From the NCBI RefSeq assembly GCF_018320785.1, contig NC_054866.1, forward strand, positions 35,317,000 to 35,380,999: 64,000 bases of DNA. The letters are read 5' to 3'. The notes under the pieces are model-generated. The model saw nothing but the letters and a program-made list of their open reading frames with translations, made no database searches and was not told the DNA's origin. Below, piece by piece: positions 24,001-63,382 of this stretch. Positions within the stretch are counted from its first letter, which is position 1, and each line of letters opens with the position of its first letter. The DNA comes from Cheilinus undulatus (lineage: Eukaryota > Chordata > Actinopteri > Labriformes > Labridae). The position numbers and the translations under genes were made by a program.

Positions 24001-27000
24001 GGAGCCCTCTAGTCCTGAACCCCAGCTTTACCATAATGCACTTTCTAGGAACTAATAAGGTATCCTGTTGGCTCTGTGTGGTGCTGCATGAGAAGCAATG
24101 CATGGTGCAGAAGTGCAGTTTGTGTTATGCTATGAAGCATCTACAGTGAAGTTGTTGTGTGTGAAATTGAAGGAATAAATCACAGATTTGTTTTGCCTGT
24201 CATATTTATTCATTAATTTTCTTTTGACTTTTGCTCTTGTCTCACTTCACTGTTTCACTTCATCAAATAAAGCATAATTTGCTATGTAAGCATGAGTGCA
24301 TAACCCAGAACAACCCCTGGAAGATTGTTCACTATGGAGGAAGCCTAAGTGTGCCATCTATTGGTTAAGCCTGTAAAAGCATGCAGTTGCCACATTAACT
24401 GTAAACTAAGCTCAATACATGGCACTGATTTCCTTCAGACAATTAACCCTTGACTTTAACTTTCATGTGCGAGAATGTTTTTGTTCCATCTCCATCTGAA
24501 TTCTGATCTCTTCCCCTCTTTCTAAAATCCTTTTTCAGCACACTTTAACTTCACATTCTTTTGTCCTGACTCTCAGGGTTCTCAGCTGCGAGGTATCCGG
24601 GGTCTGTTCAACCGTTCTTCCAAGTCCTCTGTGGATACCAACACTGGTGGCCTTCGGAAACGCTCCATCAGTGATCACCTCCTGCGGCGCACGGCCAGTG
24701 CCCCTGCAAAGGGGCGCAAGAAGACGAAGATGGCATTGTCAGAGTCAGTGGCTTCGATATCAGACCAAAAAAATGGCACAGGTGCTGAAGAAGGAGGAGA
24801 GGGCATGTCAGGAAAAGATGAAGGGGAGAAGCGTTCCCAGACCAGAGCCCCCCTCATCCACAGACCTATGTCCATGCCTTTAGACAGGCTTCTTCAAGGG
24901 CAGCTATCCATCTGCTCCCCAGACAAGGAACAGCAGGATATGGGTGCAGACACTGTTGTTGGTGGGTATCTTTCATTTTAACCTTACGAAAGAATGGAGA
25001 GTGTTCTGGCTGCAGACCTCTAATTTCTGATGCCCATTCTCACAAACCAATCATCTGAGATGCCGTGTCTGTCAGAACTGAGGTGTCATAATATGTTGGT
25101 AGGACATATTTCCAGTTTTAGATTTTTTTTTAATTAACCTTTATTTGTAAACAAAGTCTGGCAGTTACATTTATGAAATAACCACACCACAAACATTACA
25201 GACTAAAAAACATTTCATAAATAAAACAGAGAAAAAGGTTGGAGTTCTAATCTGGGATTAAATTGTATATTGACCCATTTTAGAAGTCGATAAGTGAACG
25301 GTAGCTCACTTTTGTTTTGTTCACTTCAGCTAAAGTTAAAATAGCTATGCTAGCTACATAATTTGCATTACTACATAAGCCAATGTAGTCAGTTTTAGCA
25401 ATGTGAGCTTTAGAAAATGTAACTAAAGCTAAAATAGCTACATAGATACATAGCAATACCTACATAGCTTACATAGCTGCTTTGTGAGCTTAGCTTTAGC
25501 TAAATTAGCTACATAGTGCTGTTATCTTAAGCTAAGTTAGCTTCATCAATGTGAGCTTCAGAAAATGTAGCTAAAGCTAATGTACCTACGTAGCAGACAT
25601 AGCTGCTTTGTGAGGTTGGTTTTAGCTACGTTAGCTCTGTTGTCTGTAGCTAGGTTAGCACTAGCAAGATGAACTTTAGCAAATTTAGCTGAAGCTAACT
25701 TAGCTACGCCGATAACAAAGATATGAAGGCCACACAGCTTTTTGAACTTCACTTTAGCTATATAGCTCTGTTATCTACGTAGTTTTGCAGCTACAAAGCT
25801 GCATAACCTGCCCTTGCAGCGTTAGAATGTTTTATAGAGGAAAAGCTTTTTACTGTAAGCAGACTGTTTACTCAGCTCTGTCAAACGGTTTGTAATCAGG
25901 CCTTGCAGGTCAGGTTTTGGATTTTTAACTTTGGGATCCTAACTCTTACACTAATCCTAAACTGAAGTTCAATCCAATTCAATTTCAAAAGTTTTAGCGT
26001 GTATATGCATCCTGACAGAGATAGCATCTTGGATGATCAGAATATGAGAGTGGCTGCCAGAAATTTATGGTCTCTAGCCAGACTGTCTTGAAAGAATTGC
26101 ATTAATATTCTAATATGCAGAAAAATATCCATTCTAGTTTCACTGACATTACATGTTTAAAGATTAATTTAGGAATACTAACACATGCCAACCTCCAACA
26201 TTATTAGGGCATTAACAACTGTCGCAATTGCTATGTTGTTCTATGTTGTATTGTTCAAGTAATGTAACTGAAACATATGGCAGTACTGCTACTTTCTGTA
26301 ATAAAATATATTGTGTAATGTCATATGTTAAATTCTTCTCTGTCTTACTTACCCTGCTTCAGTTATCTAAAACTCGTGTACAGTAATGTTACCATGTGAA
26401 CCAAGAGACTACAGCCTACTCACCACGTTACCTTAACATGCCTTTTCTGTCCCATCTTCATCTGTTGTGCTTCTCTATAGTAGAGAACTGACTAGGATGT
26501 ACCCACAGGTAATCCAAAATACCTATTGTCTGAAGGTTGCATCGTTCAAAAACATATCAGTATTGCGTCCACCCAGTGTATTCTGTTATAAAGTGGTCTC
26601 AGAAATATATTTGTGTCATTTGATCCCATTTGACCAAACCAATCCCATTTGACCATCTCTTTCCTAACCTGATGTCCGCAAACATGGATTTTACCTTTAT
26701 TTTAACTTTCACGGCCTCATTTTTCAGCTTTCCCTTCACAGTCGTACTTGGTGATCCATTTGTCTGTGTATTGTTATCGCATTGTATTGGCTGGACCGTT
26801 AATTGTTGTCATTTTATTGTTGGTTGGCTTGGTATTCTACATTAAATGGTATAAGGTTACACTTTATAACGCAGTCTTGACTAATCTTTTTGTCCAATGG
26901 TCTTTTTTCACAGGAGGTTTCCCTTTCAACAGGCCGAGGTCTTCCTCAATGGACCCTTTCATCGAATTGTCTCTGTGTATTGAACCAAGCATGTCTTCCC

Positions 27001-39838: not shown

Positions 39839-42234
39839 ATGCCTGGGTTCTCCTTCTTCTTTATTCTGTGGCCCTTCTCGTCTCCATTCCTGCTGCTTGT
39901 GGGGCTCATGGGTCGACAGTTGGGGCTCAGGGTGGGACTGCAGGTTGTTCAAACACTGACTTGTTCTCGGTGGGGTTCACCAAGCGACCAAGGTGTGTTC
40001 CAAGAAGGGGATGTTGTCATTGGTGGCCTTTTTAGTCTCCGCTACAAGCCTCCAACTACTGACCAGGACTTCACTCAGCAGCCATACTACCCAGCCTGCA
40101 CTGGGTAAAATATTGATGTGTGTTTTATGATGGGAAAATAATGTTTTAAATGCTTTTTTTTACCTCTGCAGTTTCTAAATTATGCTGTATACTATTAGTT
40201 TTGTGGGTTTACATGTATCTTCTGAAATCATGTAAATGATTCTAACACTTAAGATTTTTCTTTTTCTTTGTCTCAGTTTGGAAAATCTTCCATTGCAGTA
40301 CATATATGCTATGATCTTTGCTCTGGAGGAGATCAACCAGAGTAAAACCTTGCTTCCAGGGTTGAAACTGGGCTATGATATTCGTGACAGCTGTGCCATA
40401 CACCCATGGGCCACGCAGGCAGCACTGTCACTAGTTGGAGGTGACAGCAGCAGCTGTAACTCTGCAGCCCCAACAAACTATTCTACGGAGAGTGAGGAGG
40501 GGATCAGAGTGAGAAGTGGTAGGAAATCAAGCTTTAATAGATAAAAGAAGCCAATTTCTTCTTAAATATAGCACAATGCTTTTTAAATCTCACTATGTTG
40601 ATAGATGATCCGCCCGTTCCACTGATTATTGGTGGATCCTCATCTGTGGCAGCCAAGATACTCACCAAAATCCTGGAGCCACTCTCTGTTCCTTTAGTGA
40701 GTCCTTACATTTAAAATGTATGCTTTATCACCTGTTTTTCCTCTGCCTTCTACCTCTCAGACATTGCCCTTCTTTGGCAAAACTAACACATCGTCACTGA
40801 CCTACATCCCAGTTGAATTAGTGCAGAAAACATCATTTCTATTGTATTTAAGGATAACGTTTTCAGGACATTGATGTGAGTTTCTTTGTTTTTAAGATGA
40901 GCTACACAGCCAGCTGCCCCTGTTTGAGCGACAGAGCCCAATATCCAAACTTCTTCCGAACTATGCCAAGTGATATTTACCAAGCCAGGGCCATTGCACA
41001 GCTGGCTATTCGCTTCAAGTGGACTTGGATTGGGGCAGTGGTGGCAAACAATGATTATGGACTCATGGCTGTTAAGGTGTGGCAAAAGAAATCTTCTGTC
41101 ATCTTTAAATTAAAAGCTTCATCACATATGAACACTTTGCATTTTGAAACTTTTCACTTTCCTCTTCATATGGCAGGTGTTTCAGGAGGAGACTCAGGGA
41201 AAAGAGGTGTGTCTGGCATTTGTGGAGACTCTCCAAAGGGAGAGAATTGTGAGTGATGCCAGACGTGCAGCACTAACAATTCAGGCCTCCACTGCGAAGG
41301 TCATTCTGGTCTTTTCCTGGTACACAGATGTGAGAGAGCTATTCCTGCAGCTAGCCAAGATAAATGTAAGCAAATGAATGAATCACAGTCCTTTAATTTC
41401 TTAAAACACAAATTAAAATCAGCTTGATGTCGATCTCGTCTTCCATCTGTGGTCAGGTGACTGACAGACAGTTTCTGGCCAGTGAGGCTTGGAGTACCAG
41501 CGCTAATCTCCTCCAAAATCCAGTCAGTTCTGAAGTGGCCAGTGGTGTTCTTGGTGTTGCCATTCGAAGCTCATCTATCCCTGGTTTTGAACATTTTCTC
41601 AGAAGTTTGAACCCATCTCATCGCCCTAATGATAAGTTCTTAAGAGAATTCTGGGAAAAGGAGTTTGGTTGCAGTCCTGAGGCTGCAAACAGGCTGTTAA
41701 AATCCTCTCTTCCACCCTGCAGTGGTGCAGAGTCCCTGGAGAATGTGCAGAATCACTTCACTGACACCACTCAGCTACGGGTGACTTATAACGTCTATCT
41801 GGCTGTTTATGCTGCAGCCCATGCCCTTCACAGCCTCCGCTCGTGCCCCAACAGAGACAGCCCTGCTGAAAACAACATCTCCACCTGCTTCTTTCCTAAA
41901 AACATCACACCCACAGAGGTAAAAAGAAAACAATCATGTCAACATCAACACATCAAAGAGAGGACATATACTATAATACTAGCATTGTAAAAAAGAAGTG
42001 TTTTCACTGTTGATCTGCTTTCAGCTGCTGCAGCAGATGAGCAAAGTGAATTTCACCACACCACAGGGGGAACTGTTGTATTTCCAAGGGGGCGACACTC
42101 CGGCAAAGTACGACATTGTCAACTGGCATAAAACCTCTGAGGGGTCACTCAAAATCGTCCTGATTGGTCATGTTGATGGGTTTGACCTTCACTTTGATGA
42201 ATCAGCAATTCAGTGGAGCACAGGGTCAAAACAG
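39839..42234 (+). CDS. Receptor 1 ligand-binding (Venus-flytrap) exons
   Basis: Seven exons encode the signal peptide and amino-acid-binding lobe. Residues that in the calcium-sensing receptor contact the amino acid main chain have counterparts: Ser in SYTASCPC, Asp in RTMPSDIYQ, Tyr in NNDYG and Glu in LASEAW (alignment by eye). This predicts amino-acid binding. Intron sites VPL|MSY, AVK|VFQ and KIN|VTD interrupt what is one ~0.8-kb exon in most family members. Confidence 0.85.
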
Positions 42235-44667
42235 GTGAGTAGAAAAAGGAAGACTCTTGAATCAATATGGTGTGTATTGACTTAAATGCACGGGATGTAA
42301 ATTCCATCACCAGCTCTCAATCCAATGGTTACAAAAGATGATGAGAAGGGACATGGTGCTTGGCTCTGCACTGATTACTTCTTATTTTTAACTGAGGGCT
42401 CTGATGGGGGGAATCTCACAATAAGGTGTAATTAACATTAGTAAACAAGCGTTTTTATTTCACAGTTGAATTCTATAAAAAGGGAGAAAATCTGCTAAAG
42501 TTCCTAGCATTTCTGAGTAATGCAAAGACTTTTCCCAGAGATTAGAAAATGGAATGAGCTGTGGGAAAAGAGCCATATGTCGGACTTGAATCTGGGCCAC
42601 CCATGTACAGTATGTGGGCCACAACCTTTCAGCTAGGGCCAAGTCACTCTGAATAGTTTGTCTCTCTCAAAACACTGAGTTATGCTATGAAACAAAAACA
42701 GGGGTTTACTGTTAAGTAAATGCACCTTGTGGAATGCAGATTTTGATGAACAGATTTTGAAGAACAAGAAATAAGCAATGGAGTTTTTTTTCATGTAGTT
42801 TATGGCTATAGGAGAGGATTAGGTCCAGAGGGAAGACAAATTAATGCTGTGTAAATAAAAATGAGGGAAAAATCAAAATGTTGAGAATAAAGTAGACAAA
42901 CAGTTTCAAGATTAAAGTCAAGATTATTCCCAAAATTTTGACTTTTATGTCTTGTCATTTCAGCTCGAATCTTAAAGTGCGCAGCATTATTTTTCCCTTC
43001 ACCTCCAGCCCTAATCCTTTTCTGTAGATTGTAGGGAATAATCCTATTCCATTACAAATAGGAAGCAAATAAACATGAATACAGCAACAGAACAGCAGCT
43101 TGCAGGCTCCAGCACTTCAATTACAGCAATAAACATACTAAAAATTGATTACTTTTATATCCTATATCATTCTGATCTTACTTACATTAACTCAAATATT
43201 TCCATGAAATATCTGCATGAGAATTTTTCATATCGTACCTTTAAATGTTTGCTGTTACCCTTAAACGTTATCATTGTTTGGTTTACTCATTTAGGTCCCT
43301 GTGTCAGTGTGCAGTCTAAGCTGCCCTCCTGGTACCCGAAAGGCCAACAGGAAAGGAGAGCCTCTTTGCTGCTTTGACTGTATCCAGTGTGCTGATGGGG
43401 AGATAACCAATGAAACTGGTGAGGAAATACTTCATCAGATTTTTCCATAAACAGCACAGCTCTCAAACAGCAACCCTGACTATCTACAAAAGTGCTCTTC
43501 TTCTATCATTTAAGTTTCTGCATACATTCGCTTGTGTCTCCTCTTCCAGGTTCTCTTCATTGTGAGCGATGTCCATCAGAGTTTTGGTCTAATGTTGATC
43601 AAACTGCCTGCATCCCTCGTCAGCTGGACTTTCTTTCCTTTAATGAAACACTGGGCATTACTTTGACAACAGTGGCTGCTTCTGGTGTTGTGGTGACAAC
43701 AGCTGTGTTTGTGGTGTTTCTTTATTACCGTCAAACACCCATGGTAAGAATAAAGCATCATGAAATTGATATATATTCCTTCTGCTAGTTTTTCCAAGAA
43801 TATTTTTGACAATTCAGAAGGGAAGTCTGCATATTTTTTACATGCTGATTTTATTATATTTATCAAATTCTCATTTCAAGGTGCGAGCCAACAACTCTGA
43901 GCTGAGCTTCCTACTTCTTGTGTCGCTGAAGCTCTGCTTCCTGTGCTCACTGGTGTTCATTGGCCGTCCCTCAGTCTGGTCCTGTCGGTTCCAGCAGGCA
44001 GCCTTTGGGATCAGCTTTGTGCTTTGTGTTTCCTGCCTCCAAGTCAAGACCATAGTTGTTCTGGCAGCGTTTCGCTCAGCTCGGCCTGGTGCTGAGGCCT
44101 TGATGAAGTGGTTTGGACCTGGTCAACAGAGGGGAAGTGTCTGTGTCTTTACCAGCATTCAGGTGAGTGTCTTAGATGCACTTTAAAATAGAATTAGAGA
44201 TTAGAACTGGATTTTATAAATAATCAGATCTTTTTTCTTTCAAGGTTATTATCTGTATCATTTGGCTATCACTCAGCCCCCCGGTGCCTCAAGCTGACCT
44301 AAACATCCCAGGGTTAACTGTTACACTAAAATGTGCCATGGCCTCTGTGGTGGGCTTTTCTCTGGTCCTCGGCTACATTGGCTTGCTGGCCTGTACCAGT
44401 CTCCTCTTAGCTTTCCTTGCACGGAAACTCCCTGACAACTTCAATGAGGCCAAACTGATCACCTTCAGCATGCTGATATTCTGTGCTGTATGGATTGCGT
44501 TTGTTCCTGCCTATGTCAGCTCTCCTGGAAAATACTCCAATGCTGTAGAGATTTTTGCAATTCTGGCCTCCAGCTATGGTTTACTTTTCTGTATCTTTGC
44601 TCCAAAGTGTTTCATCATTCTTTTGAGGCCTGAGAAAAACACCAAGAAACACCTGATGTCTAGATAA
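39839..44667 (+). CDS. OlfC/V2R-like family C receptor 1, intact, 11 exons
   Basis: A class C GPCR of the fish olfactory OlfC type, expected in the plasma membrane of olfactory neurons. Exons: 39839-40104, 40277-40518, 40605-40696, 40897-41076, 41177-41365, 41457-41918, 42025-42234, 43295-43418, 43550-43743, 43881-44162, 44245-44667. They sum to 2664 nt, 887 aa plus stop, with all phases matching. The start is the ATG after cagctgcatcc, which begins a hydrophobic signal peptide. Order: signal peptide, Venus-flytrap domain, nine-Cys domain, 7TM. Five introns lie at positions where the family usually has none (see findings). An aataaa lies 275 bp after the stop. Other possible name: calcium-sensing-receptor-like; ligand unknown, amino acids likely. 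Confidence 0.93.
42235..43294 (+). other. Receptor 1 intron with tRNA-like SINE
   Basis: On the minus strand about 42650-42545 reads ggccctagctgaaaggttgt and later agattcaagtccgaca, similar to A and B boxes. The rest is AT-rich with no exon. Confidence 0.4.
43295..43418 (+). CDS. Receptor 1 cysteine-rich exon (124 nt)
   Basis: Encodes [20 protein letters not shown] and [11 protein letters not shown]. The 124-nt size and phases are typical of this exon in T1R/V2R/CaSR genes. Together with the next exon it supplies nine cysteines that couple the flytrap lobe to the membrane domain. Confidence 0.92.
43550..44667 (+). CDS. Receptor 1 7TM region in three exons
   Basis: Exons 43550-43743, 43881-44162 and 44245-44667 carry the last cysteines, TM1 ([16 protein letters not shown]), TM2-TM4 and TM5-TM7 ([18 protein letters not shown], then [20 protein letters not shown]) and the ending [15 protein letters not shown]. 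Introns fall at TPM|VRANN and SIQ|VIICI. In the third receptor of this window both sites are uninterrupted. Confidence 0.92.
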
Positions 44668-45049
44668 CATAGGGGATGTAAAGACTGTTCATGCTGACAT
44701 GTAAAATGACATATGAGAACAATTGTAAATATACAGTTTAAATATAACACTGAAAAGTCAGAAGGTCAGAATATTTCTATGTAGTCTTTGTGCTCTTTAT
44801 TTATTAGAATTTATTAAACTGTAAAAAGTGTTGCTTTAAAGTAGTAGCTTTCTTGCTACTCTCTGCTCTAAGCTTTTCTTGTGATGTAATATGTGAATGT
44901 ATTTTGCAGAAACCTGTTTGGTTTATAATTTTAAAAAATACAATAAAGAATGCTCCATTACTCTTTTCAAGCCATCAGTTTTGGAAAAATATCTCTGTTT
45001 TACTTCAACTTTTGCTTTAAGAAAAACTAGCTGCAAATGTAAGCTAGTT
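44668..45049 (+). other. Receptor 1 3' flank with poly(A) signal
   Basis: aataaa at 44942-44947 (tacaataaagaatgctcc) is the likeliest end of the receptor 1 transcript. No other feature is seen before the GCTA element. Confidence 0.5.
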
Positions 45050-45770
45050 TGTGCGTCTGGCTGCACACAGCAGATCTCAGACACCCCCTCTTGAAGACCA
45101 CTATGGTAAGAAGTCGCCTCTGTAAAACCTGAAGGGGTGTACTTCGCCAGTATAACGTTTTAGAATTTTTTTTAAAACTCAACTTTATTCATTAATAAAG
45201 TCTGGCATTTACATTCATTAAAACAACCATACTGCAAACATTACTGACCAAGAAACATTTCACAAATAAAACAGAAAGAAATGAGATGTCTAAGATGGGA
45301 TTAAATTAAGTATAGACCCATTTTAGAAGTAGTAACACCAACAGTGGCTTGCTTTAGCATCATAAGCTTTAGCTAAGACAACAATGCTAGCTAGTAGTTA
45401 ATGTTACAATTTAAGTCAATGTAGCCGTGTTAGCTTTGAGAAAAGCTTATTAGGCTAAAGCGAGCCACCGTTCACATAACTGCTTCTAAAACAGGTATAG
45501 AACAAGCATAATCGCTAACATTGTTGTGTTTGCTTTAGCTTTAGCTACATTAGTCATGTAGCTTTATTACCTATGCAGTTTAAAAAGCTAATGCAGTTTA
45601 TCAGCTTTAGATTTAGCTTATAAATTAATTTACCTACATAGCTTCAATAACTAATGTGTCTTTGTAAGCTTTAGATTTAGCACAATAGCTATGTTAGCTA
45701 TGTAGTTAACATAGCTATTGTGCCAAATCTTCGATGAGGGATCATGAAGGGACAGATACTAAGAATAATA
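45050..45770 (+). mobile_element. GCTA-array element copy
   Basis: Left-end words gtctggctgcacacagcag and aataaagtctggcatttac, then gacccattttagaagtag, then gcta-rich units 45350-45730. Same orientation as 24995-26065. Confidence 0.6.
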
Positions 45771-45904
45771 TTTATCTCTCATGGACAAAAAAAAAAAAAA
45801 AGTGAACATGGTTACCAAATATTACGGGCTGATGATGCAGTATTGAGACTATAGATGTCTGGGCCTCAAACACTGGAAACTAGAACCAGAACTACTGCTA
45901 TATA

Positions 45905-46050
45905 CTACAAAATTTTACATGGGCAACACAGTGTTTAGGAAGGGCAGAGCCTTTTTCTCAAGAAAGAAAAACTGAGAAGGTGAATGGACAGGTTTTGTCT
46001 GTAACATTTATTATGGGCTGATTAGGGGCACAAAACATTTGATGTAGTAG
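45905..46050 (+). repeat. Repeat shared with 11640-12110
   Basis: gggcagagcctttttctcaa, then gagaaggtgaatgg and tgtctgtaacat, parallel gggcagagcctttgaaaaaa, gagggtgattgg and tgtctgtcacat at 11970-12030. It lies between two GCTA elements. Confidence 0.5.
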
Positions 46051-46139
46051 GCGTGCATGCCAGTATAAAAACTAAAAATAGATTACATGAGCTTGACATG
46101 AAAATGAGGACTTATAACTTTGACTTCCAAAATAATTCC

Positions 46140-46830
46140 TGTTCATCCTTGAGTCCGGGTTTGGCTGCAGACTGCAGATCAAAGACGCCCTCTCTCACAG
46201 ACCACTACTGTGAGACACTGCATCTGTCAGAATGTAAATAAATGCTAAAACTTTGAAAATAAAATCCGATTAAACTTTCAGTCAGGTTAGGGTCAGGATA
46301 CCAAAAGTTGAAAGTTAAACACCTGACCCGCAAAACCAAATTACAAAACGTTTAATGAAGCAGAGTAAACAGTCTGCTCACAGGAAAAAAAAATGTCCTC
46401 CATGAAAACATTCCAACATTGCAAACGTATCTTACAAGCTCCATAAGCTACGTAGACGATGTGGCTGGGTAGCTAAATTTAGAGCAAAAAAGCTACAGTA
46501 GATAACATAGCTACCTAACTAACATAGCTAAAGCTAAAACAAAAAAAAGCTAAATTTGTGAAGTAAGATTATGCTACATCTGCTAATGTAGCTACACTGA
46601 CTTAGGTAGTAACGTAGACGATATAGTGAGTGTAGCTTTGTTAGCTTTAGCTAAAACTAACAAAAGGGAAAGCAAGCCACCATTCACATTCTAATACTAA
46701 AACGGGTCTAAACACAATTTTCCCCGGGTTAGACCTCTGAGCTTTCCCTTTGTTTTATTTATGAAATGTTGCTTAGTCTTTAATGTTCACATTTTGTTTA
46801 TTTCATGAGTTTAACCGCACTTGCTGATTC
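46140..46830 (-). mobile_element. GCTA-array element copy
   Basis: Reverse orientation: ctttggctgcagactg-like end near 46150-46170, gtaaacagtctgctcac, gcta-rich units 46440-46665, ttctaatactaaaacgggtc, then tttatgaaatgttgcttag. With 45050-45770 it forms a head-to-head pair. Confidence 0.6.
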
Positions 46831-47701
46831 TAGCTGCATGAAACTTTGAATTACCTGAAAGGATTGTTAAAGTTATGTGCTGCAGGACAGCCTGCAGCGG
46901 CTACATCATGATAAAATGGCATTAAGGATGTCTTTCAAAGAACTGATATTCAAATGTTACAGTAAATAAATATACCTTTTGATACATTTAAATATTTTGT
47001 CATTTCTTAATGTAGTTGTTTATTTATTCATTTGTATATTGTTTTAATATTTTGGTTTTGACAGCCAGTGTTTTCAGTGTAACACTGCACTGAAAGTCTA
47101 TTTAGAACTGAGTTCAGTACCATTTGTCATTAGCACACATAAACTAATGGCTCAGCTTCAAAGGAGGTTTTGTCATTTTTTTCCTGAAACGTGCGTTTGT
47201 CTCATGATGCCTGTTTCACAAGTGACTATTTCAGCCAAGGTTAAGAGGAACTAATTAAAAGATGTGTAACAGAACTTAATGTTTAGAAAGGCTAAATTAA
47301 ATGAAAACGTATTGACCTTCAACTTCACACAGCTGTCACTTCTTGGTCTCAAATCATTTGTGATTATGTTGTTTTGCTCTCACTCTTGAGAGGGGTGATT
47401 TGGGCTTGTGTGTCTGTGCTGCCATCCATTATAAAACTCACATTTACAGTTCAACTGTTCAGAGGAGGAGGGGGCTGTGTAACAGGTTAGACATCCTGCT
47501 GTGTATTATGGATTTGTGGTGTTTGAATATGCCTCCTTTGAATTCTAAATTTCTCTCAACAAGGAAATGTTAACTTTTTGGGAACAGCAGAGAAAGTTTT
47601 TTTTAATGTAATTTGACTTTTTATTACTGAAACATTCTTACATATTTGCTCTGGAAAGCTGTCAAACCTTCACATTTAGAGTATCTGGAGCAGCTGCATC
47701 C
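46831..47701 (+). other. Receptor 2 upstream region
   Basis: AT-rich. Contains a candidate TATA box, tataaa at 47430-47435, 272 bp before the ATG. The last 20 bp before the ATG (gagcagctgcatcc) closely match receptor 1. Confidence 0.35.
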
Positions 47702-50700
47702 ATGTCTTGGTTCTTCTTTTTTTTGCGGCCCTCCTCATTTCCTATCCTGCTGCTTTTGGGACTCTTGGGCAGACAGTGTGGGCCAGGTGTGGGGTTGCAG
47801 GCCACTCAGACACTGACTTGCTCCCGTTTAGGTACACCCAGCAATGAGGGTCTGTCCCAGGATGGAGATGTAGTCATCGGTGGACTCTTTACTCTTCATT
47901 ACCATCCTACAGTGACAGAAGAAGAATTTGCTTTGCCACCACACTACAAGCCTTGCACTGGGTAAAACTGAACTCTGTTACTTCCTTTGATATGATCATA
48001 TATTTGATTTTAAAAATGACTCTTTTATTCGTTCCTTTATCTCAGTTTAGAGCGTGACCTGCTGCAGTATGCTATGGTGTTTGCAGTGGAGGAAATCAAT
48101 AACAGTACAACACTGCTACCAGGTGTGAGGCTGGGGTACCACATTTTTGACAGCTGTGGCAGACCGCCGTGGGCTCTACAGGCAGCACTGTCCCTGGTTG
48201 GAGGAGACGGCAGTAGCTGCATTTCTAGTGATCCTTCGGAGAAATCTGCAACGTTCAAAGAAAGATACAGAAAAGGTAGCTTCTTCACTATTGATTTCTC
48301 TCACTTTTAAATGAAAAGAAAAATTTATACAAAGCTGTTTAAAAAACTACTAATAGATCTGGTTCTCTAAAATAAACCCTTGATTAAACTATTTAATGTT
48401 GTCGGCAGGGGATCATCCTGTTCCCTTGATCGTTGGGGGGGCTTCATCACTGACAGCCCAGACACTCTCCAGAATCCTGGGACCACTCTCTGTACCTTTG
48501 GTGAGGTTTATTTGCTTACGGCTAAAACACTGTGCTGCATCTTGTCTCTGTTTGCTGGTGTTTGGGTTATGACAGTCATATCTTACAGCATGGCAGTATA
48601 TGTTGTTATAATCTCAATGAAAAGATAAAACTCATCCTGTCCTATAGGTAGTCATTTCTGGTGAAAAATGTTTCCTACTGTCTTGAACAGCAGTGGTGGA
48701 TGGTAACAAATTAAATGCTTAAGTGCAGTTCTTCTATACAGTTTTGAGGATCTGTTCTTTACTTGAGTACTATTTTTGGAGAAGATTGTTACTTTTACTC
48801 CACTGCTTCAAAAGATAAATATCCGATTTTTAACTCCACTTCATTTCTGTTAATGCTTTCACTAATCACCTCTTTTCCTCTAAGGTGTTTTGGTGAATTA
48901 TTTTTTCTTGATTATTATTTATTTTGTTTTCATCATTCTTTTTTTTTTTTTGCTTTTGTTTTTTTGTTTTTTTTACATGCTACAGAGAAGTGAAGAAAAA
49001 GCAAATGAGCTTCAGCAGCAGCAGAAATAGAATATTTTCATTAGAACAACTGCATAGTTTAAAAGGCTGCTCACCTGCTGACATGGTTGTTTAAAAAAAC
49101 TGAATGTTTCCCCCACAGCATAACACCTGGTAGACCTTTTCCCTGTTTATTGAACATTTATGGTGCTCCTTCTATTGTTCCTATTATTTTGGAACTGAAA
49201 GTCCGGAAATCTGTAGCTATTAAGCTTAAAAAATGTTAGGAATATTCTCTAAATAAACATTATGTAAGTAGATCCATTCATTCTTGTCAGTACTGCCTTG
49301 TAAAAATACAACATTGTTCTAGGTTTAATTTTCATTTTAATACTTAGATATTTTCAAAAGCAACTTTACCTCAAGTCATTTGATTTCACAGAGCAACCTT
49401 CACTTGTATTTAAATAACATTTTACCAGGAGACTCTATACTTAGACTTAAGTAATGAGTTCTTTACTTTGTTGATCAGATCAGTCATATTAATCATGGTG
49501 AAAATTTGTAGGGAAAAGGGTGATAAAAGCTGTTTCTGTCGGGCTGTTAAAGCTACTGTAAGGACATCTCATCAGCTTTCAGAAGATATTTTCTCATTTT
49601 TCATAGTTACAGTGATGTCGGGTGTTAGTTCTACATTTACCTGGAAGTTAGCTCCAAATTTGCCATGTTTTAAAGAGCCCCCCCCCATCATTGCTCTGGG
49701 CCCCACTTTCAGAACCAGTGGTATAATCCTGCACTGCTCTGTACTGCTTTATCAGACTGTCTGCATACATCTGCTCCTTTAATCTCTTCTACTTATTTCC
49801 ATATTGGACTACTCTGTACAGTGTGGTGTTACATTTTTTTTACTGCTGTGTACATAATGTGTTTTTTGTTATTTTGTCTTTTGTTGCTGCAGTGCCCTCC
49901 AAGGGATCAGAAAAGTCTTCTCTTCTCCACTGTCACCTGGTAGGTGTCAGACAATGAGTTTAATATAAGTAATGTTTTAACTGTTTTACTTTCAGATCAG
50001 CTACTTGGCCAGTTGTCCCTGTCTGAGTGACAGGCTTCAGTTTCCTAACTTCTTCAGAACCATCCCAAGTGATATTTACCAAGCCAGGGCCATTGCACGG
50101 CTGGCTATTCGCTTCAAGTGGACTTGGATTGGGGCAGTGGTGGCAAACAATGATTATGGACTCATGGCTGTTAAGGTGTGGCAAAAGAAATCTTCTGTCA
50201 TCTTTAAATTAAAAGCTTCATCATATATGAACACTTTGCATTTTGAAAATTTCACTCTCCTCTTCATATGGCAGGTGTTTCAGGAGGAGACTCAGGGAAA
50301 AGAGGTGTGTCTGGCATTTGTGGAGACTCTCCAAAGGGACAGAATTGTGAGTGATGCCAGACGTGCAGCATTAACAATTCAGGCCTCCACTGCGAAGGTC
50401 ATTCTGGTCTTTTCCTGGTATACAGATGTGAGAGAGCTATTCCTGCAGCTAGCCAAGATAAATGTGAGAAACTAAAATTAAATTAAGACTTTTAAAGTCC
50501 CTGTAAAGTGAATCCTAAATTTGTGTCTCAACACACTAGATATGTTGGGATAAGGTTGCTGTAAACATGTGAAAACACTGAGATCTATGTGTTAGGAGGG
50601 TTTTCACCTCTTTCTTGGCTAGGTAAAATTTTGGCAGGGTAAATTATAAAATCATGAGCAGTTTATCTTAACAGTCTGTGGCAAGCTGATGTCCATATTT

Positions 50701-51985
50701 CACTTGTCTTAACACCTGGATGATTCAAATAAGCAGACTGTGGCTTTATCTCTCTCATAGCAGCAACAGTTCAGTCCCTCCTGTCTGTTAGTGTTTGATG
50801 CTAAAGATTGGTAAATTATCCAAAGATAGACATGTTCTATTCCTGCTAAGTCTGTCACAGTAAAAGCCCCTGATCCTAATCACCATTACAGAATTTTATT
50901 TTAAAGCACAAAATGAGGAACTGTGTGTTTAGAGCAGCAACTTAATAACACTGACGTCTCATAAACAGGAGAGAGAAACTTTACATACATAACTCTACAT
51001 AATTCATCGAATTTGGCCTGGTAGATTATAACACAGAGGCCTGTCATACAACACACCGAAATTACAGATTTGTATCACTTTACAGGGACTTTAAACTCAT
51101 TTCATATATTTTTTAGAGTATCTAATGAATTGATCTTGTGTTTTCTAATCCCAGGTGACTGACAGACAGTTTCTAGCCAGTGAAGCTTGGAGTACGAGTG
51201 ATGATCTTCTCCATGATCCTGTCACAAAAAAAGTAGCCAGTGGTGTTCTTGGTGTAGCCATTCGAAGTTCATCTATACCAGGATTTCAAAATTACCTCAA
51301 GAGTTTGAACCCAATTACTCGTCCCAGTGATGACTTTTTAAAGGAATTCTGGGAAAAGGAGTTTGGTTGTAGTCCCACAGCCACAAATCAATCAGCAAAC
51401 AAGTTTCCTCTAAAGGCTGCCCTTCCACCCTGCAGTGGTGCAGAGTCCCTGCAGCACCCCTTCACTGACACCACTCAGCTAAGGGTGACTTATAATATCT
51501 ACCTGGCTGTTTATGCTGCAGCCCATGCCCTTCATAGTCTCCTCACATGCCCTCATATGGACAGTTCAATGAAAAACAAAAGAAAGTCCATCTGTTCTTT
51601 AAAGCTCAATCAGCCCATCAAACCAAAGGAGGTAAGAACTAAAATTAATCTCTGTTTAAGGGGGGGATTTATGCTTTAACAATGCTTTTAAAATAACTAT
51701 TAATAGTTGAATAAATAACTCAAAGTGTATTATTTAAAAGGATGTATATTAAGATGTAAATGTTAAACCCACTAGCTTTTGCAGCACCTGAAGGATGTTA
51801 ACTTCACCACACCACAGGGGGAACAATTTTACTTCCAAGGAGGAGATATTCCACCAAAATACGACCTTGTCAACTGGCAGAAAATGCCAGGAGGTTCACA
51901 GAAACTTGTCTTGATTGGTCGTGTTGATGAGTTTAACCTCCATTTTAATGACTCAGCAATTCAATGGAGTACAGGATCCAATCAG
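47702..51985 (+). CDS. Receptor 2 ligand-binding (Venus-flytrap) exons
   Basis: Seven exons. The exon at 51776 uses acceptor cccactag to give [10 protein letters not shown], matching [10 protein letters not shown] of receptor 1; a second acceptor, tttgcag, 9 bp on would remove three residues in frame. Exons 49996-50175 and 50275-50463 are almost identical to receptor 1, unlike their neighbours. Confidence 0.85.
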
Positions 51986-54900
51986 GTAGATGAAATTATT
52001 CTGATTCTGATTTTTTTTTTAAAGTTTGTGTTCATTGATTTGTTTTTTATTGCCATGTTGAGCAAACATCACTTTGGCTTTTGAGAACATTGGTTGTTCT
52101 ATTGTTCAGGTCCCTGTGTCAGTGTGCAGTCCAAGCTGTCTTCCTGGTACCCGAAAGGCCAACAAGAAAGGAGAGCCTCTCTGCTGCTATGACTGTTTCC
52201 AATGTGCTGATGGGGAGATAAGCAATGCAACTGGTGAGGAAATTAAAACATTAAACATTACATTCCCATGTTGACTAGTATTTAACATGCAGTGACCCTT
52301 ATTCCTGAGGGAATCTCTGTAGGACGGAGATACTTGCTATACGCAGATGCATCAGGACTGCCACCGCCCCAAATGTTGGTTTGAAACATCAGCTGTGTGC
52401 AGCCTCAAAGTTAGAACCTGGATCCAAGATTCAGTATCATTTCTGGTGCAGGCAGGTTGGAGGTGGAGAAACTGTGCTGGTCAACACAGCTGCAGAGACA
52501 ACATCAGCTGAAAGTTTTAAAGACAAACTGATAAACCAAGTCTACGGTCCTTTACATCTTTATCATTAACATCCTTTAAAGTGTCCATCAAACTAACTGG
52601 GACAGATCATTCTGTCTTGAAAATTGGTGTTTAAATTTGTAGAAATAATGAAAATCATAATGGTGTTGCAGTTCAAAAAGTGACTGTGCAAAGCGATGAC
52701 TTTCAGTCAAGTGTGTCCATGTCTGCAGTGTGTAATATTTAGCCTTTTAGCACTTAGCCAAACAAAATTGGTAAATACACATAACTAGGCCTATCTAAAG
52801 TAGTGTTTAATCACTTGAATATATCAAATTTTTAAATTTTTTTTATCAACTTCGAACAAGCCTATTTTTCATACATAGGAGTCAACGGGGTCCACCATCT
52901 TGGATTTTTGCATCTTGCATATTTCCACAGGACCATGGAAGGGGCCAAAAAAAACTGAAACCCACTTTTTATATTCCACTGCTGCCATGGTTTCCAGGTT
53001 GCCATCAGAAGTGAATATTGCAATCTAAAGTTGATAGTCTGATAGTCTGGGAGGCTTGGTTCAGAGTTTACATTGCAACATTGTTGCACTTTCATGTGGT
53101 TTAGTTCACATTCACGTTGCAATAGGACAAACAAACCAAACCGTCTGGTTAACGTTAAGCAGTCATACATTGTGGCACTGTCGTCGCAAACAACGAGCAG
53201 GGAATAAGAAACTTAAACAATGAAACAATGCCAAATTTATGCTGCATTAGGATTTCTGCTTGTGTTCTGCTGTCATAGATGACATCAAATAGACCAATAG
53301 ATGAGCCATTACGTTTTCTTACTTTTTCATCTCTATTTTTTGAGACAAAAGCAACACAAATTAATAACTGCTTGATGTTTTCCAGATGGTTTGGTTCATT
53401 TGAACAAGTGTAATCTGAATGCAAACCAAACCACATGAAACTGCAACAATGCCCACTGGACCATCAGGTGTGAAAACGACCTATTCAATGCTGCTAATGC
53501 TTCCCAAGTTTGTACACTGCACCTTTAAATACATGTCTGATGTTGATGTTTTAACATATGAATCAAAAACTAAACAAAGGGGTTTTTGTGAGGATCTTTG
53601 GTTTGGACCACATCTTAGAAGACAGTTGGCTGAAAGTCACCAGTTAATTTGGTCACTAATTAAACCAAAACACCAGGAGTGTTTTATCTGTGAGAGAATG
53701 AAAATTTTGGAAAAGTAAAGTGCAGATGTTTTTTCTTACCATCAGCCATCAGTCTAAATTGATCTGATCTTACTATTTATTGTTGATGTTAGCTCTGATC
53801 TCAGAATGAACATAGCCTGAACTCTCTCAAAGGCCCTCTAGTGGAGACTTACAGTAACACTTGTCACATTTAGGCAAGCATTTGTGTAATTCATGACGCA
53901 GATGGACAGGCATGTGAATGCAAGGTCTAGACTCACCTGTACCATTTCCCTTTTACTGTTGCTTATGTTTTGTCTTCTTTCTCTCCTTTTTCCCTCTTCT
54001 AGATTCTCTTCATTGTGAAAGATGTCCATCAGAGTCTTGGTCCAATGTTGAACGAACCACTTGCATCCCTCTTCAACTGGACTTCCTTTCCTTTAATGAA
54101 ACATTGGGCATTATTCTGATCACAGCAGCTGTGTCTGGTGCTGCAGTGACAACAGCTGTGTTTGTGGTGTTTCTTTATTACCGTCAGACACCCATGGTAG
54201 GAGACTAGAACAATATAGCACAATTAGTCTTCACATTGTCACTCAATCTGAGTTTCTGTGCAAATACTTTTTAAATAGATGTACTGTGAAACATCAGATT
54301 AAGATGTTTTATGATTTTCGGATGAGCATGTGCACAGATATGAACGACTATACAATTCTGGATTAACACCAGGAACAATAACTGAGTATAAAATCATCAT
54401 TCTGAAAATTGGTTAAAGTTACAAATCATTAAGTTGATCTTGCTTTGTAAGACAGCTCTTACCCATGTGGCAGCACCAGGCTAGTAAAAGGCTCTTGCTC
54501 TTATGTTTGGATGCCCTATTTTGTGAGGCTGCACAGTATTTAGTCCCTCACTATGGCATGTTTTCTACAAGGCCTCTCTTGTTACAAGGCCTAATTTGTA
54601 TCTGAATGTTTGATTGTTTGGCTCTTGACTTTTTATGGTTTCTCTTTTGCAGGTGCGAGCCAATAATTCTGAGCTGAGCTTCCTACTTCTTGTGTCGCTG
54701 AAGCTCTGCTTCCTGTGCTCACTGGTGTTCATTGGTCGTCCCTCAGTCTGGTCCTGTCGATTCCAGCAGGCAGCCTTTGGGATCAGCTTTGTACTTTGTG
54801 TATCCTGCCTCCAAGTCAAGACCATAGTTGTTCTGGCAGCGTTTCGCTCAGCTCGGCCTGGTGCTGAAGCCTTGATTAGGTGGTTCGGTGCGGGCCAGCA

Positions 54901-55440
54901 AAGAGGCAGTGTCTGCCTTCTGACTTGTATTCAGGTGATTCGATAAAGCTTGTTTTAAAAATCCTGTTCAGTTATCTGCATTTTCCTGCAATTTAAATAT
55001 ATTCTTTTTATATTTAGATTATCATCTGTGCCACATGGTTGTCCCTCAGCCCTCCGGTTCCTCAACGTGATCTGGATTTCCAAGGATCAAAGGTCACCCT
55101 TGAGTGTGCCATGACCTCTGTGGTGGGCTTCTCTCTGGTCCTCGGCTACATTGGCTTGCTGGCTTGTACCTGCCTCCTTTTGGCCTTTCTTGCTCGAAAA
55201 CTCCCTAACAACTTCAATGAGGCCAAACTGATCACCTTCAGCATGTTGATATTTTGTGCTGTATGGGTAGCATTTGTTCCTGCCTATGTCAGCTCTCCTG
55301 GGAAGTATGCAGTTGCAGTAGAGATTTTTGCAATTCTGGCCTCCAGCTATGGTTTACTTTTGTGTATTTTTACACCAAAGTGTTTCATCATTCTTTTTAG
55401 GCCTGAGAGAAACACTAAGAAAAATCTGATGGCCAGGTAG
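47702..55440 (+). CDS. OlfC/V2R-like family C receptor 2, intact, 11 exons
   Basis: Tandem paralogue of receptor 1 with the same 11-exon layout: 47702-47961, 48046-48275, 48409-48500, 49996-50175, 50275-50463, 51155-51631, 51776-51985, 52110-52233, 54003-54196, 54653-54934, 55018-55440. Total 2661 nt, 886 aa plus stop, no frame break. The start ATG follows cagctgcatcc as in receptor 1 and opens a hydrophobic signal peptide. Binding-site counterparts are kept ([28 protein letters not shown]), nine Cys residues precede TM1, and the ending is [14 protein letters not shown]. It is longer than receptor 1 because of mobile elements in introns. Its own ligand is unknown. Confidence 0.93.
48691..49480 (+). 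mobile_element. hAT-like insertion in receptor 2 intron
   Basis: Left end cagtggtggatggtaac followed by tttacttgagtactattttt and tgttacttttactccactgc is the common teleost hAT terminus. Right-hand words gacttaagtaatgag near 49450 suit the other end. The corresponding receptor 1 intron is only 200 bp against 1495 bp here. Confidence 0.55.
50496..51090. mobile_element. 595-bp MITE flanked by TTAA in receptor 2 intron
   Basis: Ends agtccctgtaaagtga and tcactttacagggact are inverted repeats. TTAA flanks both sides (50492-50495 and 51091-51094), as in piggyBac- or Kolobok-type insertions. Without the MITE and one TTAA the intron would be 92 bp, against 91 bp in receptor 1. Confidence 0.85.
52110..52233 (+). 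CDS. Receptor 2 cysteine-rich exon (124 nt)
   Basis: Encodes [20 protein letters not shown] and [11 protein letters not shown], the same size and phases as in receptor 1. The following intron (52234-54002) holds a MITE. Confidence 0.92.
53070..53460. mobile_element. Palindromic MITE in receptor 2 intron
   Basis: cattgttgcactttcatgtg..ccaaaccgtctgg at 53078-53150 is the approximate reverse complement of ccagatggtttgg..catgaaactgcaacaatg at 53382-53451. Both arms are about 70-90 bp. The intervening minus frames have no motif. Confidence 0.7.
54003..55440 (+). CDS. Receptor 2 7TM region in three exons
   Basis: Exons 54003-54196, 54653-54934 and 55018-55440, with introns at TPM|VRANN and CIQ|IIICA, the same sites as receptor 1. 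The conserved [18 protein letters not shown] and [12 protein letters not shown] blocks are intact. Confidence 0.92.
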
Positions 55441-61938: not shown

Positions 61939-63382
61939 TTATGAATTGAAAGTTCCTCGGCCCATGATTGCTTTCTTTGTGTTCCTCTCTGGTCTCAGCA
62001 GGATTATGTAACATTTGGGTCCAAACAGTGCCACCAACAGGCCAAAACTGGAGGCCAGGATGGCAAATATCTCGACAGCGTCTGCATACTTCCCTGGTGA
62101 GTTGACATAAGCAGGGACAAAGGCAACCCACACAGCACAGAAGATCAGCATGCTGAAAGTGATGAGTTTGGCCTCATTGAAGTTGTCGGGCAGATTCCTG
62201 GCCAGAAACGCCAACAGGAAGCAGAGGATAGCCAGAAAGCCAATATAACCCAACAAGACAGCAAAACCAATGGTAGACCCGACAACACACTCATAAACTA
62301 TCTTGTCATTGTAGTATTGAGTGTTTTTATGAGGAGAAGGTGAGGAGGAGACGATCCAGACAGTGCAAATTGTTGCCTGAACAGAAGTCAGCACCAGGAC
62401 TGTCCCTCGCTGTTGCATGGCACCAAACCACTTGAGAACAGCTCCCCCTCCTGGCCTTGAGGCCTTGAACACAGCAAGAACCACCATGGTTTTCACCAAA
62501 ATACATGACACACAAAGAACAAAGATGATCCCGAATGCTGCGTGTCTCAGCTGGCATGTCCAAAGACTGGGACGACCAATGAACAGCAGTGAACACAGGA
62601 AGCAGAGTTTTAGTGCCACCAGGAGCAGGAAACTCAACTCTGAGTTGTTCGCTCGGACCATGGGCGTGCTGCGGTGATAGGTGAAGATTCCCAGGACGAC
62701 AGCACAGAGAAATGAGCCCAGTAAGGAGGCAGTTGTGAGGCAGATTCCCAAAGGCTCATGGTAGGAGAGAAACTCTGTTTTCTTTGGAACACAGTGGTCA
62801 CGCTCTGGACTGGACCAGAAGTCTTCTGGACAACTGGTGCACTCTGTGGAGTCTGAGGAAGAGGATGAGGTTTATTTTTATACAGAGAAAATTCTTCTTG
62901 TACGATATGATCAATGTATTTAGCATGATGACAAACCAGATGAAGTGGTGATCTGTCCCTCAGAACAAGGGACACAGTCGAAGCAGCACTCAGGTTGTCC
63001 TTTCCTTCTGGCCATGCGGGTACCTGGAGGACAGCTCTCACTGCACACTGACCGAGGTGGCTGTAGGTAAGAAAACAAATCTGTAAATATACATCACTTT
63101 AAGTTGAAGTGGTTTACAGTCTTTTTACAGTGGGTCCTTATAATTAGAAATTACCCTCTTAGACTTAAAGTTCCAGAAGATTTTGTTTTCATCAATTTTA
63201 AGTTCTTCACCTCTCAAATCAGACCTTTTCACCTCACCCACAGTTTGAATTTTAGTTCTTCCATCAGGGAGCCACAGCCAGCTGATGACATCATAGATCG
63301 GTAGGGCATCACCGTTGTCATCAAATGAAACTTGGTCACCAAACGGTGTGGTGAAGTTGACCTTTTGTAAATAATGAACAAG
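61939..63382 (-). CDS. OlfC/V2R-like family C receptor 3 (3' part, three exons)
   Basis: Exons on the minus strand: 63382-63155, 63060-62937 and 62852-61939, joined in phase to 421 codons plus stop. They encode the end of the flytrap lobe ([20 protein letters not shown]), the 124-nt Cys exon ([28 protein letters not shown]) and the whole 7TM region in a single 914-nt exon. TM and tail blocks [18 protein letters not shown] and [16 protein letters not shown] are intact. The family's usual exon plan is kept, unlike receptors 1 and 2. It faces them tail to tail. The 5' exons are beyond 64000. Confidence 0.93.

Follow-up and report, generated by a model that had tools for sequence, protein, structure and literature searches.

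Extra introns in two tandem OlfC receptors of Cheilinus undulatus, probably gained within a receptor cluster with many candidate insertions

Receptors of the T1R, V2R and calcium-sensing groups usually possess six coding exons, among them a flytrap exon of ~0.8 kb and a seven-transmembrane (7TM) exon of ~0.9 kb. The description of the zebrafish OlfC genes reports six exons with strictly conserved phases in every full-length gene, a finding that is not a blind test of exon number since alignment to six stereotypical exons was required (PMC1764893), and T1R genes are likewise described with six exons (PMC12294341). Intron gain in vertebrates is described as rare, its mechanism and choice of sites being presented as open matters (PMC12357937, PMC3151243); in slc26a1, five introns are reported to have been added in the ancestor of Eurypterygii, with convergent use of insertion sites (PMC12357937). 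Here we analyse a 64,000-nucleotide stretch of the Cheilinus undulatus genome (GCF_018320785.1, contig NC_054866.1, positions 35,317,000 to 35,380,999; hereafter the window), which carries two tandem OlfC receptor genes (g1 and g2) with five introns each beyond the six-exon plan. As the window is one end of an OlfC cluster situated at 35.36-35.54 Mb of its contig, the remainder was fetched and modelled. We consider that the introns of g1 and g2 most likely represent a real and old gain in a receptor clade, and that they form part of a family-wide pattern.

New models of the two genes were built from the nucleotide sequence. Each yields an intact spliced frame of 11 coding exons with GT-AG introns throughout: g1 (39839..44667, plus strand, 887 amino acids; exons 39839-40104, 40277-40518, 40605-40696, 40897-41076, 41177-41365, 41457-41918, 42025-42234, 43295-43418, 43550-43743, 43881-44162 and 44245-44667) and g2 (47702..55440, plus strand, 886 amino acids; exons 47702-47961, 48046-48275, 48409-48500, 49996-50175, 50275-50463, 51155-51631, 51776-51985, 52110-52233, 54003-54196, 54653-54934 and 55018-55440). 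A purpose-written spliced-alignment program with the g1 protein as sole query recovered all internal exon boundaries of g2, and the intron positions and phases agree in both genes, so that the first-pass annotation (11 coding exons per gene, cut at identical positions and phases) is borne out on these points. The nearest public full-length protein to g1 (P0002, NCBI, Cheilinus undulatus, 99% identity) departs from it at three exon junctions only (the split of exon 2, VPL|MSY and SIQ|VII, the bar marking the intron), the other residues being identical. Pfam analysis of P0002 found ANF_receptor (PF01094), NCD3G (PF07562) and 7tm_3 (PF00003), i.e. flytrap, nine-cysteine and 7TM domains within one protein, and some close relatives are labelled 'olfactory receptor CR1' or 'C family, r1' in databases; with this predicted architecture (flytrap, cysteine-rich region and 7TM), the two genes are taken to encode ordinary receptors of the class C odorant type. 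As a separate observation, P0002 (77% identity) was the sole Cheilinus protein among the 120 matches listed for g2, which may therefore be missing from public annotation or differently modelled in it.

In order to separate canonical from extra introns, we used the models of 18 cluster genes (plus strand, g1, g2 and A-D; minus strand, five R3 genes and the seven genes M1-M7), all sites being numbered by the columns of the cluster protein alignment. Five introns are common to 18/18 genes, at columns 89-90 (phase 2), 211 (phase 0), 507 (phase 0), 585-586 (phase 0) and 627 (phase 1), and the canonical phase series 2, 0, 0, 0, 1 is found in all of them, with one-column shifts in A and M3. Column 211 corresponds to VPL|MSY and is cut also in the seven six-exon genes; moreover, this genome's calcium-sensing receptor (of which the later exons were covered) has an exon that starts at ISYASS right after an acceptor AG. 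VPL|MSY (g1, 40697..40896; VPL|ISY in g2, 48501..49995) is therefore the canonical class C intron 2. Its candidacy as an extra intron, which errors at this junction in 43 of 134 related proteins had seemed to support, was excluded by the cluster models.

The extra set of g1 and g2 consists of four phase-0 introns and one in phase 1. The phase-1 intron splits exon 2 (g1, 40519..40604; g2, 48276..48408); the remaining 16 cluster genes lack it in their final models (alternative models of gene C placed a weak cut of 63 or 69 bp near this site), and P0002 differs from g1 exactly here. The phase-0 introns are X4 at AVK|VFQ (g1, 41077..41176, 100 bp; g2, 50176..50274, 99 bp), X5 at KIN|VTD (g1, 41366..41456; g2, 50464..51154, with an insert bounded by 21-bp inverted ends at 50491-50511 and 51075-51095), X9 at TPM|VRA (g1, 43744..43880; g2, 54197..54652) and X10 at SIQ|VII (g1, 44163..44244; CIQ|III in g2, 54935..55017), all on the plus strand. 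The earlier claim of five introns beyond the six-exon plan, all in phase 0, was thus right in number and misassigned in one member: the cuts at AVK|VFQ, KIN|VTD, TPM|VRA and SIQ|VII stand as extra and as phase 0, whereas VPL|(M/I)SY is canonical and its place is taken by the phase-1 split of exon 2.

Comparison of exon structures across the OlfC subfamilies of the array revealed that several neighbouring subfamilies carry extra introns of their own. They occur in 11 of the 18 genes (g1, g2, A, B, C, D and the five R3), at 16 sites that we count as reliable. Confined to g1 and g2 are the sites 178 (phase 1, the exon-2 split), 271, 336 and 692; A is cut at 309 (phase 2) and 418 (phase 1), B at 262, 550 (phase 2) and 813, C at 309 (phase 0), D at 277 and 333 (phase 2, a GC-AG intron with four in-frame stops), and R3 at 403. 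At each of the three remaining sites, two or more subfamilies carry an intron: 786, which is SIQ|VII (g1, g2, B, C and D), 240 (D and R3) and 331 (B and R3). Phase 0 prevails (11/16 sites), and 13/16 are confined to one subfamily. In contrast to the 11 coding exons of g1 and g2, M1-M7 have exactly six and canonical introns only, save for one weak signal-peptide cut in M7 (such first-exon cuts, in B and M7, were excluded from the site count), and the calcium-sensing receptor shows no extra intron in the exons covered. The boundaries at 418 and 550 are less certain, since A-D were modelled from distant protein queries. Gaps in gene B at columns 165 and 434 were rejected as introns, being multiples of three and free of stops.

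Within the window, the R3 subfamily is represented by part of R3a, termed Receptor 3 in the first-pass annotation (61954..63382, minus strand), which comprises exons 7 and 8 and a 7TM exon (62852-61954) that is unbroken, as had been stated. Six more exons lie past the window end, and three extra introns interrupt the flytrap region, so that the contrast drawn earlier with g1 and g2 applies to the 7TM exon and fails for the flytrap exon. The earlier notion of introns confined to one lineage does not hold for SIQ|VII, shared with B, C and D; within the cluster, X4, X5, X9 and the exon-2 split occur in g1 and g2 only.

The distributions of the shared sites 786, 240 and 331 are mutually incompatible among g (i.e. 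g1 and g2), B, D, R3 and M, and hence no tree can give a single lossless gain for each. On the trees that we built, site 786 needs three changes (constraint-test tree) or two (a denser tree of 28 rows), while 240 and 331 need two each. Topology constraint tests returned p 0.033 for {g,B,C,D}, p 0.035 for {B,R3}, p 0.077 for {D,R3} and p 0.115 for {g,R3,B,C,D}. Because the deep branches differ between trees, we leave the number of gains and losses at the shared sites unfixed, beyond at least two changes each on the 28-row tree.

In genes that lack the extra introns, their sites resemble splice junctions more often than the background does. At the homologous positions of the seven six-exon genes the proto-splice motif MAG^R was found in 17/111 cases, against a background of 2.1%, and none of 5000 randomly drawn sets of phase-matched sites reached this value. 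After removal of SIQ|VII the count was 12/104 (P 0.0008), and 6/16 sites have at least one fitting six-exon gene (P 0.0018). The clearest case is SIQ|VII itself, which reads CAG^GT in 5/7 six-exon genes. As to the source of the inserted DNA, the earlier suggestion to search the introns for common sequence was followed in an all-against-all BLASTN comparison of 132 introns, in which no element linked extra introns at different sites and no shared sequence of the introner or transposon type was found among the new introns. In the same comparison, canonical R3 introns were matched over 42 bp by one B intron and, in further matches, by the weak signal-peptide cut of M7. Viral and bacterial contigs, scanned for relatives, gave no lead, nor did an Rfam search. 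Two features of g2 are recorded here in their own right: the insert in X5, whose exact 21-bp inverted ends resemble those of miniature inverted-repeat transposable elements, makes up most of the 691 bp of this intron (91 bp in g1), and canonical intron 5 holds inverted arms (53079-53193 and 53336-53451, ~116 bp, 75% identity) that are perhaps another mobile element.

For other species, intron positions were read from mistakes in publicly available gene predictions, since such mistakes tend to lie at introns. We scored indel edges in conserved stretches (g1 residues 180-389 and 480-879) across 134 relatives of 780-950 amino acids (141 were returned by the g1 and g2 searches, 7 of them outside the size range). 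A total of 130 edges was obtained, with peaks at the canonical VPL| (43 proteins), SIQ| (11) and AVK| (8), any other indel being present in at most 3 proteins; KIN| and TPM| had zero edges in this count. For these two junctions the traces are fused predictions, which begin at VTDRQ (for KIN|VTD; Epinephelus and Sphaeramia, with a compatible ITDRQ start in Mugilogobius) and, twice, at VRANN (TPM|VRA) in the hake Merluccius polli. One Merluccius polli copy runs off after SIQ, which hints less strongly at X10 in hake. Such junction errors suggest that X4, X5, X9 and X10 are present in other spiny-rayed fishes, and X9 in hake, so that position and phase may be conserved across acanthomorphs.

Fused predictions of Sphaeramia that join TPM| to the next gene were rejected as evidence for X9, since 28/47 sequences of the R3 clade (eel included) join there and the wrasse R3 has no intron at this point. 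These 28 predictions, eel P0185 among them, join TPM| to ~VSY of the following copy, which may be a mistake of annotation common to them or the mark of a genuine cryptic donor; if the latter, TPM|VRA may be a latent donor. Within the R3 clade (P0142-P0258, 47 sequences), R3 positions 199 and 289 are joined, with the exon between them skipped, in 26/47 sequences (Myripristis included). An edge at 199, 289 or 355 (the last adjoining a variable loop) was found in 0/4 R3-clade sequences from eel, catfish, Prochilodus and lungfish and in 39 of the other 43. The indel count for R3 (71/119 proteins) gave weak peaks at 199 and 289 (3/71 each) and a peak of 9 at 355, beside the loop.

In the 28-row tree (which omits R3c, R3d and lungfish), g2 branches before Takifugu, g1 and medaka (99/99 and 100/99). 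Eel and catfish are nested within the R3 clade (100/99), with Prochilodus adjacent to A (100/100), so that R3 and A, at least, predate the divergence from the zebrafish lineage. The branching of g2, together with the traces of X4, X5, X9 and X10 in spiny-rayed fishes, upholds the earlier proposition that the extra introns predate the duplication of g1 and g2. We infer that the gains took place after the split from the zebrafish lineage, X9 having been acquired before hake and percomorphs parted.

Taken together, these observations make it probable that an ancestral six-exon gene gained five spliceosomal introns at splice-like sites before it gave rise to g1 and g2, and that its neighbours gained others in the same manner. 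DNA would have entered the coding sequence at points that already read like splice junctions (the best being CAG|GT at SIQ|VII) and would have been tolerated because splicing removed it; some proto-splice sites would be kept throughout the family by the needs of the protein, so that introns could have entered more than one subfamily at the same site independently, in a process of repeated gain in the lineage leading to the spiny-rayed fishes. For the wider proposition, that within one fish lineage several ancient subfamilies of a single tandem array acquired introns independently, in part at the identical nucleotide position owing to conserved latent splice sites, with six-exon neighbours keeping the pre-insertion state, we see the chances as about even. 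Several points weigh against the main interpretation. At the intron position itself only 8/16 sites match MAG^R (the exceptions include X5, X9 and R3 403), only 6/16 have any six-exon gene that fits, and conserved Gln-Val codons, instead of an insertion preference, could explain part of the CAG|G enrichment. The {D,R3} grouping was not rejected (approximately unbiased test, p 0.077), and the deep relationships among g, B, C, D and R3 change between analyses, with g placed next to R3 (98/95), with B (Shimodaira-Hasegawa-like approximate likelihood ratio 89) or without resolution according to the tree. Four spiny-rayed R3-clade predictions (Takifugu flavidus, Lates, cod and Seriola) have no edge at an R3 extra site. 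Furthermore, the structures of other species rest on protein predictions, whose pipelines may copy each other's errors, and every junction reported here was predicted from genomic sequence.

The incompatibility of the three shared sites means that loss or recurrence is needed somewhere, and this speaks in part for an unlikely scenario in which the extra introns were ancestral to fish OlfC genes and repeatedly lost, leaving the six-exon genes and the patchy occupation of X10, 240 and 331; X10 needs only two changes on the 28-row tree. Such a history requires exact losses in every six-exon lineage, 13/16 sites are known from one subfamily only, and extra introns are lacking in seven genes of the array and in the covered exons of the calcium-sensing receptor. 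Given these, and the report of six exons in all full-length zebrafish OlfC genes (PMC1764893), gain is favoured over loss. An improbable alternative is that gene conversion between paralogues, and neither separate gains nor shared ancestry, spread the common positions. That g1 and g2 have undergone conversion is indicated by a tract (40966..41365, plus strand) that is 98% identical (392/400 aligned positions) to g2 50065-50463 and spans exon 5, X4 and most of exon 4: the synonymous divergence (dS) of exon 5 is 0.046, and that of the other exons 0.118-1.509 (exon 8, at 0.118, is also low). As X4 lies within this tract, its sharing by g1 and g2 alone is weak evidence of age, and its trace in other percomorphs says more. 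Against a wider role of conversion, BLASTN at E 1e-4 matched no same-site introns from different genes other than the X4 pair (pairs within R3 left aside), the flanking proteins of B, C, D, R3 and g differ widely, and X4, X5, X9 and X10 leave traces in other spiny-rayed fishes. That the 11-exon models are artefacts in which some cuts are coding inserts appears very improbable. X4 of g2, stop-free and 99 bp long, could be read through, which makes X4 the sole intron that might be retained in frame; the X4 of g1, also stop-free, would shift the frame at 100 bp, and read-through of the other introns meets an in-frame stop (18/20). Aligned relatives carry no insert at X4, X5, X9 and X10 except 2-6 residues at X10, and P0002 contains no intron-derived sequence apart from two residues at the same place.

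Elsewhere in the window, a 947-codon open frame (26748-29591) has no Pfam match; this frame and 24631-24981 may both be parts of the phospholipase C eta gene, which is said to flank such clusters and is used as a synteny marker.

If repeated gain at splice-like sites is the correct explanation, the array, with its many candidate gains, three multi-subfamily sites and six-exon genes alongside, would permit direct tests of insertion-site preference and of recurrence, and may help to show how vertebrate genes acquire introns. On the practical side, the assumption of six exons in OlfC gene finding can mis-splice the genes of spiny-rayed fishes, and the public predictions examined already err at these junctions. 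We found no description of extra introns in OlfC or V2R genes in the literature searched (titles, abstract openings and passages on exons and introns), which does not establish their absence from print.

Five gains in one receptor gene had been put forward as unusual, a view that has to be tempered by the precedent of five in one gene, slc26a1 in Eurypterygii. As described in PMC12357937, slc26a1 and slc26a2 resemble the present case, as interpreted here, in the five introns added to slc26a1, the convergent sites and a compatible timing; they are single-copy transporters, whereas here a tandem receptor array has gene copies with candidate gains beside six-exon ones. The insertions reported in MC2R/MC5R, P2Y and CHRM3 of ray-finned fishes (PMC3151243) are alike in affecting G protein-coupled receptors, in their GT-AG borders and in the proto-splice motif MAG^R, and their conserved positions and absence from zebrafish would have probable counterparts here; these receptors are not class C, and their introns are tied in that account to genome compaction, whereas the present genome measures 1.17 Gb. 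The serpins of ray-finned fishes (PMC2746811) also combine several gains in one family with a proto-splice motif (MAG^N), and are not receptors. Among chemoreceptors, the spliced odorant receptors of cichlids (PMC4122780) share coding introns, mostly of phase 0 in one-intron genes; they belong to the OR family, which normally has a single coding exon, unlike OlfC. The zebrafish OlfC genes (PMC1764893) are of the same family and follow the six-exon plan, all full-length members having six exons, unlike g1 and g2. Comparable gains are thus already published for slc26a1, melanocortin receptors and serpins, and what makes the present array stand out is the presence of internal controls together with insertion sites shared between subfamilies.

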